Below, piece after piece: positions 53,091 through 59,907 of a stretch of 64,000 nt of DNA (position 1 is the first letter of the stretch; each line of letters begins with the position of its first letter). A model generated the notes under the pieces. That model was not told where the DNA came from. It saw only the letters and a program-made list of their open reading frames with translations, and made no database searches. Source of the DNA: Armatimonadota bacterium (lineage in GTDB: Bacteria > Sysuimicrobiota > Sysuimicrobiia > Sysuimicrobiales > Humicultoraceae); assembly GCA_031081585.1 (NCBI GenBank), contig JAVHLY010000001.1:69039-133038 (forward strand), in the 5' to 3' direction. The position numbers were made by a program, and so were the translations under genes.

Positions 53091-53159
53091 CGGCGCGCAT
53101 GCCCCTGCGGGCGCCGGCGGCTGCGGCGGGAGCGCGCTGGCGGGGCGCGCGCGGTGACG

Positions 53160-53165
53160 TATAAT
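53160..53165 (+). promoter_or_regulatory. -10 element of the cytochrome c oxidase operon
   Basis: Consensus TATAAT ends 15 bp before the coxB ATG. The transcription start should fall at about 53172, so the leader is under 10 nt and begins inside the gaggag ribosome site. Confidence 0.55.
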
Positions 53166-53180
53166 GCTGTGAGGAGTCAG

Positions 53181-54002
53181 ATGGTGCGAGCGCCCGGGAC
53201 CGCCCAGCGGACCGCCGCCGCCTTCGCCGCGGCCGTGGTCCTCCTCGTCGTCCTGGCCGTTGCCGCCACGGTGGCGGCGCGCACGCGCTGGTGGTTCCCG
53301 CCGCTGGCGTCCCTGCACGGCCGGGCGGTGGACACCCTCTTCGCCGTGACCTTCGGCATCATCGCGGTGGCCTTCGTCCTCGTCCACGCCCTGCTCGCGC
53401 TCTTCGTCTGGCGCTACCGGGAACACCCCGAGCGCCGCGCCGCCCACTGGCACGACCACCGCGCCCTGGAGCTGACCTACACCCTCGTGCCGGCCGTCGT
53501 GCTGGTGAGCCTGACCCTGGCGGCGGCGCGCCTGTGGGCGGGGATCCACAGCCCGCCGCCTGCTGGGGCGCTGGCGGTGGAGGTGCGGGCGGAGCAGTTC
53601 GGCTGGCTGGCCCGCTACCCCGGCCCGGACGGCGTCTTCGGGCGGGTGGACCCGGCGCAGTATGACCGCCGGCGCAACCCCATGGCGCTGGACCGGAGCG
53701 ACCCGGCCGGCCGCGACGACATCGTCACCACCGAGCTCCACCTGGTGGTCGGCCGGCCGGCGGCGGTGCGGCTGCGCTCGAAGGACGTCATCCACTCGTT
53801 CTTCCTGGCGGAGCTGCGGGTGAAGCAGGACGCCGTCCCGGGGGTCACGGTGGTGAAGTGGTTCGTACCCACGCGGGTAGGGACGTTCGAGATCGCCTGC
53901 GCCGAGCTGTGCGGTGTGGGCCACTACGCCATGCGCGGCCGTCTGGTCGTGCAGTCGCAGGCCGCCTTCGACGCCTGGCTGGCGGCGCAGGGGCGCCGCT
54001 AG
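53181..54002 (+). CDS. coxB: Cytochrome c oxidase subunit II
   Basis: 273 residues. Two membrane segments (about 8-35 and 55-80) precede a cupredoxin domain with the CuA site CAELCGVGHYAM (two Cys, Glu, His, Met) and an upstream histidine in KDVIHSFFLAELRVKQDAVPG. There is no C-terminal cytochrome c domain, so this is aa3 type and not caa3. ATG at 53181 follows gaggag; a GTG further upstream lies within the promoter and is rejected. First gene of the oxidase operon. Confidence 0.93.
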   Translation: MVRAPGTAQRTAAAFAAAVVLLVVLAVAATVAARTRWWFPPLASLHGRAVDTLFAVTFGIIAVAFVLVHALLALFVWRYREHPERRAAHWHDHRALELTYTLVPAVVLVSLTLAAARLWAGIHSPPPAGALAVEVRAEQFGWLARYPGPDGVFGRVDPAQYDRRRNPMALDRSDPAGRDDIVTTELHLVVGRPAAVRLRSKDVIHSFFLAELRVKQDAVPGVTVVKWFVPTRVGTFEIACAELCGVGHYAMRGRLVVQSQAAFDAWLAAQGRR

Positions 54003-54024
54003 GGGGCGGCCAGCGGAGGGAGCG

Positions 54025-55830
54025 ATGAGCCACGCCACCCACCCCGAGGTCCACGTCGAGCCCGAGCTGAGCTTCTGGCGCAAGTACATCTTCAGCCAGG
54101 ACCACAAGGTCATCGGCATCCAGTACGCCCTCACCTCGCTGGTGATGGCCGTGATCGGCGGGATCCTGGCCATGGTGATCCGCCTGCAGCTGGGCTGGCC
54201 GGGCACGCGCTGGCCGCTGCTGGGCAGCCTCTTCCCGGGCGGGGCGCCGGGCGGGCTGGTCTCGCCGGCCTTCTACCTGGCCAGCGTGACCATGCACGGG
54301 ACCATCATGATCTTCTTCGTCCTGACCACCCTGCTCACCGGCGGCTTCGGGAACTTCCTCATCCCGCTCATGATCGGCGCGCGGGACATGGCCTTCCCCT
54401 TCCTCAACATGCTCTCCTACTGGCTCTACCCGCCGGCGCTGCTCGTCCTGCTGGCCTCCTTCTTCGTGGAGGGCGGCGCGGCCGGGGGCGGGTGGACCGC
54501 CTACCCGCCGCTGTCGGCCCTGCCCCAGGCCGCCCCCGGCTCGGGGCTGGGGCAGACGTTGTGGCTCATCAGCCTGGCCATCCTCATCGTGGCCTTCCTC
54601 TTCGGCTCGCTGAACTACATCACCACGGTGCTGCAGCTGCGCACGCGGGGCATGTCCATGCTGCGGCTGCCCCTCACGGTGTGGGCGCTCTTCGTCACCG
54701 CGCTGCTCTCGCTGTTCGCCTTCCCCGTGCTGCTGGCCGCCTCCATCATGCTCCTCTTCGACCGCCTGGGGGGGACGAGCTTCTTCGTGCCCGCCGGCGT
54801 GCTCATCGGCTCCCAGGCCGTCGACCACCGCGGCGGCAACCCGCTGCTCTGGCAGCACCTCTTCTGGTTCCTGGGGCACCCGGAGGTCTACGTGCTCATC
54901 CTGCCCCCCATGGGGATGGTCTCCGACATCCTGGCCAACAACGCCCGCAAGCCCATCTTCGGTTACCGTTTCATGGTGGCCTCCATCGTGGCCATCGGCT
55001 TCCTCTCCTTCCTGGTCTGGGGGCACCACATGTACGTCAGCGGCATGCACCCGCTGCTCGGCACCGCCTTCATGACGACGACGCTGATCATCGCGGTGCC
55101 CTCGGCCATCAAGACCTTCAACTGGCTGGCCACCCTCTACCGTGGGCGCATCCGCTTCACCACACCCATGCTCTTCGCGCTGGGCTTCCTCTCGCTCTTC
55201 GTCACCGGGGGGCTCACCGGCATCGTTCTGGGCCAGCCGCCGGTGGACATCTATATGCACGACACCTTCTTCGTCGTCGCCCACTTCCACTTCGTCATGG
55301 GGCTGGCCGCCATCTTCGCCGCCTTCGCCGGGACCTACTACTGGTTCCCCAAGATGTTCGGGCGGATGATGGACGAGCGGCTGGGCAAGTGGCACTTCTG
55401 GCTCTCCTTCGTGGGCGCGTACGCCACCTTCTTCCCCATGCACTACCTGGGCTTCCGGGGGATGATGCGGCGGATCTATACCTACACGCTCTACGAGCGC
55501 CTGGCCGGGCTGCAGCCCATCAACGCCTTCATCTCGGTGGCGGCCTTCGTCCTCTTCGCCGCGCAGTTCATCTTCCTGTACAACTTCTTCGCCTCCGCCG
55601 TCCGCGGCCGGCGGGCCGAGGTCAACCCCTGGGGGGGCACCACGCTGGAGTGGCAGGCCCCCTCCCCGCCCCCGCACGGGAACTGGGGCCCGACGCTGCC
55701 CACCGTCTACCGCTGGGCCTACGACTACTCCCCGCCCGGGGCCAGGGAGGACTTCCTCCCTCAGACGGCCCCGCCGGTCGAGGCGGCCGTGCCCGGCGAC
55801 GGGCAGCGGCGGGGGAGGGAGGGCCACTGA
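54025..55830 (+). CDS. coxA: Cytochrome c oxidase subunit I (A1-type)
   Basis: 601-residue catalytic subunit with heme and CuB. FLGHPEVYVLILPPMGMVSDI carries the CuB histidine and the D-channel glutamate of A1 oxidases. WGHHMYVSGM holds the two other CuB histidines, PSAIKTFNW the K-channel lysine, and VVAHFHFVMG the heme ligands. GNFLIPLMIGARDMAFP holds the D-channel aspartate. Twelve or more membrane segments, with a proline-rich C-terminal tail. ATG start with ggaggg upstream. A proton-pumping terminal oxidase is expected. Confidence 0.96.
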   Translation: MSHATHPEVHVEPELSFWRKYIFSQDHKVIGIQYALTSLVMAVIGGILAMVIRLQLGWPGTRWPLLGSLFPGGAPGGLVSPAFYLASVTMHGTIMIFFVLTTLLTGGFGNFLIPLMIGARDMAFPFLNMLSYWLYPPALLVLLASFFVEGGAAGGGWTAYPPLSALPQAAPGSGLGQTLWLISLAILIVAFLFGSLNYITTVLQLRTRGMSMLRLPLTVWALFVTALLSLFAFPVLLAASIMLLFDRLGGTSFFVPAGVLIGSQAVDHRGGNPLLWQHLFWFLGHPEVYVLILPPMGMVSDILANNARKPIFGYRFMVASIVAIGFLSFLVWGHHMYVSGMHPLLGTAFMTTTLIIAVPSAIKTFNWLATLYRGRIRFTTPMLFALGFLSLFVTGGLTGIVLGQPPVDIYMHDTFFVVAHFHFVMGLAAIFAAFAGTYYWFPKMFGRMMDERLGKWHFWLSFVGAYATFFPMHYLGFRGMMRRIYTYTLYERLAGLQPINAFISVAAFVLFAAQFIFLYNFFASAVRGRRAEVNPWGGTTLEWQAPSPPPHGNWGPTLPTVYRWAYDYSPPGAREDFLPQTAPPVEAAVPGDGQRRGREGH

Positions 55831-56474
55831 CCTCCCCTCGCACGCTCGAGCGCGCCCCGCGGCCGGTCCCGGCCCCGCCGGGGGGCGGGGCTTGGCCGCC
55901 CTCGGGGGACGGCTTCCGGGGCGGTGGCGGTGGGGAGAGCGCCGTCCCCCGCGCCCAGACGGCGCGGGTGGGGCTGGGGGTCTTCCTGGTGGCGGTGACG
56001 ATGCTCTTCGTTGCCTTCACCGCCTCCTACCTGGCGCGGCGCACCGCTGCCGACTGGGCGCCCGTCCCGCTGCCGCAGCTGTTCTGGGCGAACACGGCGG
56101 TGCTGCTGGCCAGCAGTGCGGCCCTGGAGTGGGGGCGGCGGCGCGGGCGACGGGGCGACCCGGCCGCGTTGCGCGCCGGGGTGCGCACGGCCGCCGCGCT
56201 GGGGGCGCTCTTCGTCCTGGGACAGGTGGGGGCGTGGCGCCAGCTGGCCGCCCAGGGCGTCTTCATGGCCACGAGCCCCCACAGCGCCTTCGTCTACCTG
56301 CTGAGCGGGGTGCACGCCGTCCACCTGACGGGCGGGGTGGGCGCCCTGGCCTACGCGCTGCGGCAGGTGGACCGCCACCCCGACCCGCTGGGCGCGGTGG
56401 AGGCGCCGGCGCTGTACTGGCACTTCGTGGACGCGCTCTGGCTCTACGTCTTCGCCGTCCTCGCCTTCCTCTGA
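55827..56474 (+). CDS. Cytochrome c oxidase subunit III, first copy (probable CTG start)
   Basis: About 215 residues with five membrane segments. Family marks: TARVGLGVFLVAVTMLFVAFTASYLARR, GQVGAWRQLAAQGVFMATSPHSAFVYLLSGVHAVHLTGG and ALYWHFVDALWLYVFAVL. No ATG, GTG or TTG precedes the conserved region in frame. A CTG at 55827 overlaps the coxA stop (CTGA) and has a strong ggagggaggg just upstream, so it is the probable start. A GTG near 55968 would cut into the first membrane segment. The glutamate usual in subunit III (W-E-W context) is replaced here by alanine. Confidence 0.82.
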   Translation: MTSPRTLERAPRPVPAPPGGGAWPPSGDGFRGGGGGESAVPRAQTARVGLGVFLVAVTMLFVAFTASYLARRTAADWAPVPLPQLFWANTAVLLASSAALEWGRRRGRRGDPAALRAGVRTAAALGALFVLGQVGAWRQLAAQGVFMATSPHSAFVYLLSGVHAVHLTGGVGALAYALRQVDRHPDPLGAVEAPALYWHFVDALWLYVFAVLAFL

Positions 56475-56542
56475 CCGGGCGCGCGGAGGGCGTCGAGCGC
56501 CCGAGGACGGGATCTCCGAGGACGGGACACCCGGAGGAGCTG

Positions 56543-57217
56543 ATGGAGCAGGTGGGGCAGGTCGTGCAGCGCACGGAGGAGCAGGTGCTCGAGCCCTCCC
56601 CCTGGGGCGGTGGGCAGTCCCCCTTCGCCGTCTCCTGGCCCAAGCTGATGATGTGGCTCTTCCTGCTCTCCGACGCGCTGACCTTCGCGGCCCTGCTCTC
56701 CGGCTACATGGTGGCCCGTCTCACCGCGGGCGTCTGGCCGCACCAGGCGGCGATCTTCAACGTCACCTTCGTCGTGGGGCCGATGACCTTCATCCTCATC
56801 TGCAGCAGCGCCACCATGGCCGTGGCCGTGGGGGCCGCCCGGCGGGGGGAGCGGCGCCTGGTGGTCCGCTACCTGCTCCTCACCGTGCTCGGCGGGCTGG
56901 CCTTCCTGGGGATGCAGGCGTACGAGTGGACCCACTTCATCCGCGAGGGGGGGCGGCTCACCGGGTGGGCTGGGCACGTCCCCGAGGGGGTGCTGCCGCC
57001 GGGGGCGGCGATGCCGGCGATGTTCCCGGCCACTTTCTTCGTCACCACCGGGTTCCACGGCGCCCACGTCACCAGCGGGGTGATCTACCTGTTGGTCAAG
57101 GCCGTGCAGGCCGCCCGCGGGCGGGCCAGCGCCGAGTCCGTCGAGATCGCCGGCCTGTACTGGCACTTCGTCGACCTGGTCTGGGTCTTCATCTTCACCA
57201 TGCTCTACCTGATCTGA
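56543..57217 (+). CDS. coxC: Cytochrome c oxidase subunit III, second copy
   Basis: 224 residues with five to seven membrane segments. This copy keeps the conserved glutamate (GMQAYEWTHFI) and has FPATFFVTTGFHGAHVTSGVIYL and GLYWHFVDLVWVFIFTMLYLI, all typical of CtaE. ATG start with ggaggag 6 bp upstream. It follows the first subunit III by 68 bp; the two are only distantly related, so this is an old duplication, not a recent one. Confidence 0.9.
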   Translation: MEQVGQVVQRTEEQVLEPSPWGGGQSPFAVSWPKLMMWLFLLSDALTFAALLSGYMVARLTAGVWPHQAAIFNVTFVVGPMTFILICSSATMAVAVGAARRGERRLVVRYLLLTVLGGLAFLGMQAYEWTHFIREGGRLTGWAGHVPEGVLPPGAAMPAMFPATFFVTTGFHGAHVTSGVIYLLVKAVQAARGRASAESVEIAGLYWHFVDLVWVFIFTMLYLI

Positions 57218-57242
57218 GGCTGAGCTGAGGCGGGAGGGAGGC

Positions 57243-57557
57243 GTGGCCCCACACGGCGGATCCGCACACACAGACGGCCCCTGGTACCGCACCTACGTCG
57301 TGGTGTGGTTCTGGCTGCTGGTCATCACCGTCCTGGAAGTCGGCGCGGTGGCGGTGACGTTGCCGCGGGCGCTGCTGGTGACGCTGCTGGTGGTGCTCTC
57401 GCTGATGAAGGCGGCGCTGATCGTGGCCTACTTCATGCACCTGCGCTACGAGCGGCTCAACTTCATCTTCGCCGTGCTGGCCCCGGCGATCCTCATCGTG
57501 GTCCTGGTGGCGGGCGTCGCCCCGGACGGGGTCAACGCCGTGCTGTTGCGGCGCTAA
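57243..57557 (+). CDS. Cytochrome c oxidase subunit IV (prokaryotic CyoD-like)
   Basis: 104 residues with three membrane segments, matching the small subunit IV of aa3 oxidases: YRTYVVVWFWLLVITVLEV, SLMKAALIVAYFMHLRYE and a C-terminal hydrophobic helix. GTG start with gggagg upstream, 25 bp after coxC. Last gene of the oxidase operon; it may aid subunit I assembly. Confidence 0.87.
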   Translation: MAPHGGSAHTDGPWYRTYVVVWFWLLVITVLEVGAVAVTLPRALLVTLLVVLSLMKAALIVAYFMHLRYERLNFIFAVLAPAILIVVLVAGVAPDGVNAVLLRR

Positions 57558-57638: not shown

Positions 57639-58019
57639 CTACAGCAACCCCTCGTCGCTCAGGCGGGCCACCATGGCCGCCCGACTGCTCACGTGCAGGC
57701 GGCTGTAGATGCGGCGCAGGTGCGTCAGCACCGTCCACGGGCTGATCCCCAGCACCTGGCCGATGGCCTTCGTCCCCAGCCCCCGGGCCACCAGCCGCGC
57801 CACCTGCAGCTCCCGCGGCGTCAGGGTGACCGTCCCCGAGCGCGGGCGCAGGCGGGAGAGGCGGTAGGTGGCCCCCTCGACGTCCACCTCCGCCAGGACC
57901 TCGTGCCACCGCCCTTCGGGGGCGCTGATCCGCCGGACCGGCGGGACGCCGACGCTCATCCGGGCCAGCTCCCGCAGCAGGCTCTCCCGGGGGGTCTCGC
58001 GCTCCGGCAGCGTCTTCAT
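57639..58019 (-). CDS. LuxR/GerE-type helix-turn-helix protein
   Basis: 126 residues. The C-terminal half is a LuxR DNA-binding domain: LTPRELQVARLVARGLGTKAIGQVLGISPWTVLTHLRRIYSRL. The N-terminal 55 or so residues show no receiver or autoinducer domain. The ATG overlaps the upstream HTH-TPR gene stop (ATGA), so the two are translated together. It may act as the output regulator of the upstream TPR receptor. Confidence 0.85.
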   Translation of the reverse strand: MKTLPERETPRESLLRELARMSVGVPPVRRISAPEGRWHEVLAEVDVEGATYRLSRLRPRSGTVTLTPRELQVARLVARGLGTKAIGQVLGISPWTVLTHLRRIYSRLHVSSRAAMVARLSDEGLL

Positions 58020-59311
58020 GCTCCCGCGGCCGCCGCGGCCCGCTGGGCGTCGAACGCCCCGGCGAAAGCGCGGGCGGCCTCTCCCTCCTTTCCTTCCTCG
58101 AGGTAGGCGAATCCCAGGTCGCGGAGCGCCTCGCTGAGCTCGCGCGACATGCCGAGCCGGCGGAACGCCTCCGCCGCCGCGTGGAAGTGGCCACGGGCGG
58201 CGGCGGCGTCGCCGCGCAGGCGCGCCACCGCACCCAGCGCCGCCCGCGCCCGCGCCGCCTCGGCCGGGTCGCCCACCCGTTCGGCCAGGCGGAGCGCCTC
58301 GCGGGCGTGCCCGTCCGCTTCGTCGGTCCGTCCGAGAGCCGCCGCGGCCCGCGCCAGCTCGGTGAGCGTCTGGGCGCGTCCGGCGTCGTCGGCCGCCTGC
58401 TCGGCGATGAGGAGGCTCTGACGGAGAAGCGGCTCGGCCTCGGCGGGGGCGCCGCGGTCGAGGTGGACGATGGCCAGGCTGCGGCGGGCGATCCCCAGCA
58501 GCTGGAGGTTCTCCTGGAGCTGGAAGCACTCCGCCGCCCGGGTGAGGTGGCGGGTCGCTTCCGTCCAGGCGCGGTGCTGCAGGCACACCATGCCCGTGTG
58601 GTAGTGGAGGAGCCCGAGGGTCTCCGGGTCGGCGGCCGCCCGCAGGGCGGCCTCGGCCGCCCGGAAGCACTCCTCGGCCTGGAGCGGCAGGCCCAGGTTG
58701 AGGTAGACGCGGCCGAGGTTCCCCCAGACCCGCCCGGTGAGGGCCCGGTCCTCGGAGGGGGCCGACCGCAGGTGGTCGAGGGCGCGCTGCAGGGCGCGTC
58801 GCGCCGCAGGGAAGTCCCGTCGGCGCAGCTCCATGATGCCCCGGGCGTTGGCCGCCTGGGCGGCCAGCAGCGCGTCGCCCAGGGCCGCCGCCCCCTCTTC
58901 GGCGGCGGCGACGTGGGGCTCGGCCAGGTCGAAGTGGTGCAGGCCCGTGAGGGCCTGGGCCAGGCCCAGGTGGGCGCGGGTCTGCAACCGGAGGTCGGCC
59001 AGGCGGTCTGCCCCCCGGAGGGCGGCCTGGTACTCCTCCACCGCCCGGGTGAACTCGTGGCGCACCAGCAGTGCGTCGCCGTGAGAGAGGTGGGCTTCGA
59101 GGAGGAGGGGGTGCTCCTCCTCATCGGCCAGCAGGGCACTGAGCGGTTCCTGGAGGCGCTCCGCCAGGCGGCGTAGCGTGGCCAGGGAGGGCCGGACCCG
59201 ATCGTGCTCCACCATGCTGATGAAGCTCTCCGAGAGGTCCTCTCCGGCCAGCGCCCGCTGGGTCAGGCCGCGGGCTTTGCGAAGCGCACGCAGTCGGGCC
59301 CCGAGCGTCAC
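58016..59311 (-). CDS. Xre-type HTH regulator with TPR repeats (RRNPP-like architecture)
   Basis: 431 residues. Residues 3-60 form an Xre/Cro helix-turn-helix (LRALRKARGLTQRALAGEDLSESFISMVEHDRVRPS). From about residue 70 to the end, eight to ten TPR-like helix pairs are visible, for example ALGDALLAAQAANARGIMEL and LTGRVWGNLGRVYLNLGLPLQAEECF. This layout matches peptide-binding quorum-sensing receptors of the RRNPP group, though HTH-TPR proteins with other roles exist. A small secreted-peptide gene lies 149 bp upstream on the same strand, and a LuxR-type gene overlaps its stop. GTG start. Confidence 0.82.
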   Translation of the reverse strand: MTLGARLRALRKARGLTQRALAGEDLSESFISMVEHDRVRPSLATLRRLAERLQEPLSALLADEEEHPLLLEAHLSHGDALLVRHEFTRAVEEYQAALRGADRLADLRLQTRAHLGLAQALTGLHHFDLAEPHVAAAEEGAAALGDALLAAQAANARGIMELRRRDFPAARRALQRALDHLRSAPSEDRALTGRVWGNLGRVYLNLGLPLQAEECFRAAEAALRAAADPETLGLLHYHTGMVCLQHRAWTEATRHLTRAAECFQLQENLQLLGIARRSLAIVHLDRGAPAEAEPLLRQSLLIAEQAADDAGRAQTLTELARAAAALGRTDEADGHAREALRLAERVGDPAEAARARAALGAVARLRGDAAAARGHFHAAAEAFRRLGMSRELSEALRDLGFAYLEEGKEGEAARAFAGAFDAQRAAAAAGA

Positions 59312-59460
59312 ACCGGCTCACCCCCCGTGACGGCCAGGACGGTCCCCGACCCAGAGGTCGGGATGGCCGGCCGGGCGGTCACCGCGTCGAGCCGGTCAGG
59401 GTGCCTCTGCTGCCCCGCTTCTCGGGGCCCCGGGTTGAGGAGGGGGAGGGCCCCCGGCCC

Positions 59461-59592
59461 CTACTTCCCGGATCCTCCAAAGAAGTCGGCGTCCCCCGGG
59501 CCGGCGAAGGCCGCAGGCACGCCGAGGGCAGTGGGAATGGCCAGGGCCAGCTGGAGGGCCACGAACACTCCCAGGATGAACCTGCGCATCAT
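59461..59592 (-). CDS. 43-residue secreted peptide, candidate signal for the HTH-TPR receptor
   Basis: A short frame, ATG-ATG at 59592 to TAG at 59461, with an excellent ribosome site (ggagg, 5 bp before the ATG). The product begins MMRRF, has a hydrophobic core (ILGVFVALQLALAIPTALGV) and a signal-peptidase I site after AAFA, leaving a 13-residue mature peptide GPGDADFFGGSGK. Size, export signal and position beside an HTH-TPR regulator match Phr/PapR/NprX-type propeptides. I know of no family for it. Codon use is GC-rich like its neighbours. It could instead be an unrelated small secreted protein. Confidence 0.68.
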   Translation of the reverse strand: MMRRFILGVFVALQLALAIPTALGVPAAFAGPGDADFFGGSGK

Positions 59593-59907
59593 CCCTTCCT
59601 CCCTTCGTGCGCTGCCACTCTACCTATCGACCAGACCCGGGGTTTTTAGACCCCCTCCCGGCGGAACCGGCGAAGGACGTTGGCAGGTGTGGAGGGTGCG
59701 GGACGGGCGACAGGCCTGCCGGCTCTAGGGTCGGGGTTCGACGTGGTGACTGAAGTTCCTTCCCCGGTCGGCGGAAAACTTCACTAAAAGTGAAGTCACC
59801 CGAAAGGGCATTGAACCAGGAGTCCACCGGGTGATCGGGCACGGCGTCGAGAATGGATGGAGAAACCGCCGCGGGGAGCCACCCCGGCAGGGAGAGGGGG
59901 GAAGACG
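59593..59907. other. 315-bp gene-free region with a palindromic operator candidate
   Basis: The gap separates the peptide gene (minus) from the GYD gene (plus). It holds the perfect palindrome at 59778-59796, a lone TGAAGT half-site at 59751-59756, and an AT-rich patch, but no frame with family homology. Promoters for both flanking genes must lie here; none is clearly consensus. Confidence 0.5.
59778..59796. promoter_or_regulatory. Perfect palindrome ACTTCACT-AAA-AGTGAAGT
   Basis: Eight-base arms are exact complements around AAA, in an AT-rich patch within GC-rich DNA. A further TGAAGT half-site lies 40 bp upstream. It has the form of an operator for a dimeric regulator and stands between the peptide gene and the GYD gene. 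Confidence 0.55.

Follow-up and report, generated by a model that had tools for sequence, protein, structure and literature searches.

Peptide-pheromone systems of the RRNPP(A) type (NprR–NprX, Rap–Phr, PlcR–PapR, AloR–AloP, AimR–AimP) consist of a TPR receptor of 250–500 aa and a small Sec-exported propeptide encoded beside it, and surveys in the open-access literature place the family in Bacillota only (PMC9765709, PMC10075063, PMC12700828). Operationally, such systems are detected as a propeptide of 10–100 aa directly beside the receptor gene (PMC10075063). In many known systems the receptor gene comes first and the peptide gene second, an arrangement regarded as a hallmark (PMC7425212); NprR-type receptors combine an HTH domain with nine TPRs (PMC12700828), and in two Bacillus phage systems, Rap3T–Phr3T and Rap105–Phr105, the pheromones are tandemly duplicated (PMC11343458). 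Here we analyze a three-gene cassette in a 64,000-nt stretch of DNA (further referred to as the window) from Sysuimicrobiota, the phylum previously called CSP1-3 (PMC11604079), and conclude that it is very probably a peptide-pheromone system working like those of Bacillota, with export, processing, import, binding and density dependence being inferred.

The genes are observed on the minus strand in the order propeptide gene, HTH–TPR receptor gene, GerE/LuxR-type gene, with the ATG of the last placed on the TGA of the receptor gene. The positions and descriptions given to all three genes by the first-pass annotation are correct, as judged by the sequence and Pfam matches; its 43-residue frame with a ribosome site (GGGAGGAAGGG) and a signal peptide is borne out, and the overlap of the LuxR-type gene with the regulator stop is 4 nt long and occurs in the window and nine relatives. 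The features of the locus are listed below.

57639–58019, minus strand: GerE/LuxR-type DNA-binding gene, 126 aa, ATG start
58016–59311, minus strand: putative peptide receptor, HTH–TPR regulator, 431 aa, GTG start
59312–59460, minus strand: gap between the propeptide and receptor genes, 149 nt, GC-rich
59461–59592, minus strand: propeptide gene, 43 codons, 43 aa (42 from the second ATG), read from the sequence
59625–59649, minus strand: candidate propeptide promoter CTAAA-N13-GTCGATA, the only copy in the genome (genome scan)
59737–59758, minus strand: operator-like motif GAACTTCA-N8-GTCGAA upstream of the propeptide gene, the only copy in the genome
59778–59796, no strand assigned: perfect inverted repeat ACTTCAC-taaaa-GTGAAGT just beyond the operator-like motif, found in the sequence

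By the operational RRNPP signature (PMC10075063) the predicted cassette qualifies. The propeptide of 43 aa is located 149 nt upstream of the receptor gene on the same strand, and its Sec/SPI signal is recognized by a simple home-made rule, used here for scoring signal peptides instead of SignalP; the receptor, with 431 aa, an HTH domain and nine TPRs, fits the expected 250–500 aa with TPRs and an optional N-terminal HTH. Similar to RRNPP(A) systems, several paralogous pairs are present per genome. The differences are the host phylum, Sysuimicrobiota rather than Bacillota; the gene order, as each of the 43 pairs identified has the propeptide gene first and the receptor gene after it, both on one strand; and, in the window's subfamily, a coupled stand-alone GerE protein.

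The propeptide reads MMRRFILGVFVALQLALAIPTALGVPAAFA followed by GPGDADFFGGSGK. It has a positively charged n-region and a hydrophobic core of the Sec type, the signal ending with VPAAFA and the predicted cleavage site being between AFA and G. The peptide is present as a single copy, and its precise mature form is undetermined, GPGDADFFGGSGK being a prediction; the core common to relatives is G-x-G-D-x-D-[FS]-[FY]-G (orthologues L020, L021/L019 and L024).

Small ORFs upstream of 81 receptors were scored for a positively charged N-terminus, a hydrophobic stretch and a ribosome site. A strict test required the ORF within 300 nt and was applied to receptors for which 500 nt or more of upstream DNA is available; across the phylum, 38 of 74 such receptors passed it. 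Among 100 control genes there were two hits, each of them an ordinary coding sequence, and Markov shuffling of the upstream DNA gave 2 hits in 1480 regions (0.14%); hence the small ORF occurs above chance. A slightly looser cut yields 43 propeptides, mostly of 38–85 aa (41 of 43), the other two having 101 and 135 aa. By these criteria, 38 of the 81 receptors, including whole paralogous clades, have no propeptide; several of them are located at contig ends, and no comparable ORF was found downstream of or antisense to such receptors. Paralogous HTH–TPR clades with no small secreted ORF nearby comprise loci L108–L128 except L110, and these receptors may sense something else or have their peptide encoded elsewhere. 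At four further loci (L045, L046, L078, L079) the usual propeptide place upstream is taken by a seemingly cupredoxin-like secreted protein with a length of about 145 aa.

The receptor tree places the window in a subfamily that comprises 16 loci and spans two families. The first-pass annotation had proposed that a small secreted ORF with a variable C-terminus should always be present in relatives, and that its absence or a disrupted frame would refute the signaling role. This expectation is met: upstream DNA is readable at 15 subfamily loci and the ORF is found at all 15, the tails being GPGDADFFGGSGK, GSGDIDSYGGTAR, GRGDMDSFGAAVRN, GRGDVDSFGAIRN, GHGGGELL and repeated GHGDGELL. The frame is intact and under purifying selection, as no pairwise comparison within the window's group gives a dN/dS as high as 1 (the values are 0.41/1.42, 0.46/2.08, 0.53/1.02 and lower). 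The annotation had also suggested that a GC stem in the propeptide–receptor gap could tune the ratio of the two products. This is not supported, as the RNA folds no better than shuffled sequences (z –0.59; 55 of 200 shuffles are at least as stable), and the stem was rejected as a regulatory element. The length of the gap in relatives varies from about 28 to 283 nt.

Many precursors contain one short unit two to five times. Units such as GDVGPGDS, GDTGPGQN, GDIGPGS, GDSLPGGS and GDTWPGGG typically occur in two copies, one directly adjoining the signal peptide and the other forming the extreme C-terminus, each behind Ala: in L091, GDVGPGDS follows Ala in both places, with the second copy ending at the stop codon, and L096 and L100 have two copies of GDSLPGGS behind Ala. 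GHGDGELL occurs in up to four copies (L130), and GDDNGPGAVYGLPPLVPQ in up to five (L133). In L028 GHGGGELL directly follows the signal peptide, while in L030–L032 AGHGGGELL forms the C-terminus of the protein, so both ends of the peptide are fixed. Where the boundaries are clear, the Sysuimicrobiota peptides are about eight residues long, and they are Gly/Asp-rich; AloP13, SHGRGG, is also Gly-rich (PMC7425212). Precursors with more than one pheromone unit resemble those of Rap3T–Phr3T and Rap105–Phr105, but in Sysuimicrobiota the duplication is widespread and reaches five units, and the copies are often arranged with one at the signal-peptidase site and the other ending the protein.

Adjacent repeat copies differ almost only synonymously (pS 0.40, pN 0.023). 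The units were picked by protein match, and pN is therefore biased low by construction; the pS value of 0.40 shows that the copies are old and have been kept alike, and almost exclusively synonymous differences are as expected of putative multi-copy pheromone precursors. Similarity among the peptide tails rises with similarity among the receptors (Mantel r 0.77, compared to 0.53 for the signal part), with shared descent contributing to both figures.

The receptor matches Pfam HTH_3/HTH_31 and TPR_12, the Xre/HTH_3 domain occupying residues 3–61 and nine TPRs residues 68–430. As to the peptide-binding groove, the lack of which the first-pass annotation named as a further ground for refutation, the AlphaFold2 model consists of the HTH and eighteen TPR helices, that is, nine TPRs (mean pLDDT 92.9), and conserved polar residues are mostly on the A helices, which in a TPR superhelix form the concave side. 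In the subfamily, 14 such residues are located on the A helices, including seven Arg, vs. three on the B helices. It is reasonable to suppose that the conserved Arg would suit acidic, Asp/Glu-containing peptides, an inference from sequence alone. The model superposes on RapI (TM 0.65 by query and 0.77 by target), NprR and PlcR, and Foldseek also matches it to RapF bound to the ComA DNA-binding domain (3ulq), the top-scoring RRNPP entry of the search. As E-values are better for LGN and other eukaryotic TPR proteins than for RRNPP entries, the fold supports but does not prove RRNPP kinship. The receptor profile matches PlcR over both the HTH and the TPRs (profile positions 2–266, E 7e-13; no joint tree was built).

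The LuxR-type protein has a Pfam GerE match (6e-15), and a Pfam scan of its 126 aa detected neither a receiver nor an autoinducer-binding domain; the model has a small N-terminal part of a helix and three strands and a C-terminal GerE HTH. The coupling of this gene to the receptor, which the first-pass annotation considered unusual, is real and conserved, but it is not universal. Of the 14 subfamily loci where the downstream DNA can be read, 10 have the partner; at the other four, a patatin-like gene, called by sequence inspection, replaces it. The latter loci (L129–L132, from two related genera) have this phospholipase-looking gene after the receptor, and a partial HTH–TPR homologue encoded on the opposite strand at a distance of about 2.5 kb. 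In RapF–ComA, a TPR receptor holds a GerE-type DNA-binding domain, that of ComA, and the cassette similarly combines genes for a TPR receptor and a GerE/LuxR-type DNA-binding domain; it differs in that an HTH is retained in the receptor itself and a receiver domain is missing from the GerE protein. The LuxR-type protein is likely a conserved output for most of the window's subfamily but not for the systems of the phylum at large, and this role is inferred.

Nine genomes of the same family have the locus, and in eight of them the exact motif GAACTTCA-N6–9-GTCGAA is observed upstream of the propeptide gene, with 0 matches in a backwards-read control. The half-site of the adjacent inverted repeat (ACTTCA/TGAAGT) recurs within this operator-like motif, and related half-sites, TGAAGTT/GTGAAGT, are present in L129, L131 and L034; the repeat is thus a candidate receptor binding site, although no binding data exist. 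The candidate promoter occurs with identical spacing in L020, L021 and L024, its form over the four loci being CTAAA-N13-GYCGATA. Taken together, the predicted operator, repeat and promoter fit autoregulation by the receptor's own HTH. A generic sigma-70 scan gave nothing, and a sigma-28-like reading of the promoter was rejected, as its single occurrence in the genome provides no link to flagellar genes.

In a pattern scan of the genome collection, the sole relative of the receptor was found in Armatimonadetes bacterium CSP1-3, which places the window's genome in this phylum. A receptor-profile search was positive in 35 of 43 Sysuimicrobiota genomes, most of which are fragmented, with one to several copies in each; one family, represented by seven genomes, lacks the receptor entirely. 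A single genome can have as many as three paralogous pairs, each with a peptide of its own. The window's genome contains three full-length receptor copies, and its other propeptide–receptor pairs have two copies of GDDPPDSD (L080, contig C60) and two of APELPGEN (L082, contig C25), which, together with the window pair, suggests three orthogonal channels in one cell. Outside the phylum, no receptor of this type was found in 248 genomes at E 1e-60; at 1e-25, matches in 80 genomes all lacked the HTH part, and a shorter HTH–TPR profile tried on 80 outside genomes gave one distant case (G150). A mobile origin was rejected, as searches of phages, plasmids and viral contigs revealed no relatives.

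HTH–TPR genes with divergently oriented secreted precursors are observed in one genome of the outgroup and in others of the same order (L201, L202, L203, L205, L206, L207, L209, L210 and L211). The C-terminal motifs of these precursors are IGNWPDPM in up to three copies, three copies of TVGGSWPTSQDP, two of GWWPN, NWWPN and GYWPF, as well as GNWPDPM. A tRNA beside one of these genes matches mostly actinobacterial plasmids, and the lineage is therefore probably Actinomycetota. The group is probably a second RRNPP-like one outside Bacillota, with a different layout.

In the proposed mechanism, the 43-mer would be exported by Sec and cut between AFA and G to release GPGDADFFGGSGK or a shorter core, which would probably be re-imported by an oligopeptide ABC importer; the window's genome encodes 21 oligopeptide-binding SBPs (SBP_bac_5). 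The peptide is predicted to be bound in the concave groove of the HTH–TPR regulator, and binding would change the action of the regulator at the operator-like site upstream of the propeptide gene, the cassette thereby sensing and adjusting its own signal. The translationally coupled GerE-type protein would be the likely output, altered in level or activity, and may be either merely co-expressed, or held and released by the receptor in the way RapF acts on ComA.

Other readings of the locus should be considered. Small secreted peptides beside HTH–TPR regulators are also known from bacteriocin and RiPP loci, and the peptide is Gly-rich; the small ORF could thus be the precursor of a secreted antimicrobial or RiPP, with the HTH–TPR and LuxR-type proteins regulating the pathway. 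We find this improbable, as no modification, immunity or dedicated export gene is present beside the locus (within the few kb checked at each), the neighbours in relatives' loci are quite different and yet the peptide–receptor pair is retained, and short repeats released at Ala–Gly sites suit a pheromone better. That the propeptide reports on its own export or on the state of the envelope rather than on cell density, as a same-cell timer or a membrane-retained peptide, is harder to address: Phr peptides have been discussed as timers, and sequence cannot separate self-sensing from group sensing. The diversification of the peptide with the receptor and the presence of up to three paralogous pairs with different peptides per genome fit intercellular signaling and make this reading unlikely, but do not exclude it.

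Chance frames are numerous in GC-rich genomes and 43 codons is a short length, so one may ask whether the ORF is a spurious frame beside an ordinary receptor and LuxR-type regulator. The low frequency of such ORFs in shuffled regions, dN/dS below 1, synonymous-only differences between repeat copies, and the presence of the ORF in every readable locus of the subfamily leave very little room for it. Even less credible is the LuxR-type gene as the true quorum-sensing element, an acyl-homoserine-lactone LuxR solo: the GerE domain is indeed there, but the protein is short and has no autoinducer-binding domain in the Pfam scan, and in three relatives it is scarcely more than the HTH (73–82 aa).

Given the peptide-pheromone reading, such signaling looks like a previously unreported feature of Sysuimicrobiota, a largely uncultured phylum, as far as the open-access literature goes; the paper on Sysuimicrobiota does not mention quorum sensing (PMC11604079). 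In the literature found, cytoplasmic peptide-pheromone receptors form a Bacillota family, and the present set would extend this mode to an essentially uncultured lineage, where the pheromone can be read from its own repeats. It would also supply an outgroup, needed for rooting the RRNPPA family according to a 2025 structural phylogeny (PMC12700828), and for deciding whether five or nine TPRs came first. A wider claim seems to us evenly poised between right and wrong: that RRNPP-type signaling is not a Bacillota invention, being phylum-wide in Sysuimicrobiota with several orthogonal pairs per genome and having a divergent version in a third, probably actinobacterial lineage, and that receptors of the window's subfamily control the stand-alone GerE protein coupled to them, an equivalent of Rap–ComA within a single operon. 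As the predicted peptides are short and unmodified, they can be directly synthesized and tested at once on the purified receptor.

The neighbours of the cassette in the window are cox genes and genes encoding a GYD protein, a metallo-beta-lactamase-fold protein and an ABC exporter. The cytochrome oxidase cluster (53154–57557, with COX4_pro at 57243–57557) is located tail to tail with the cassette; a regulatory link between the two is possible, with no test data available. In L019, cox genes are also found beyond the LuxR-type gene.
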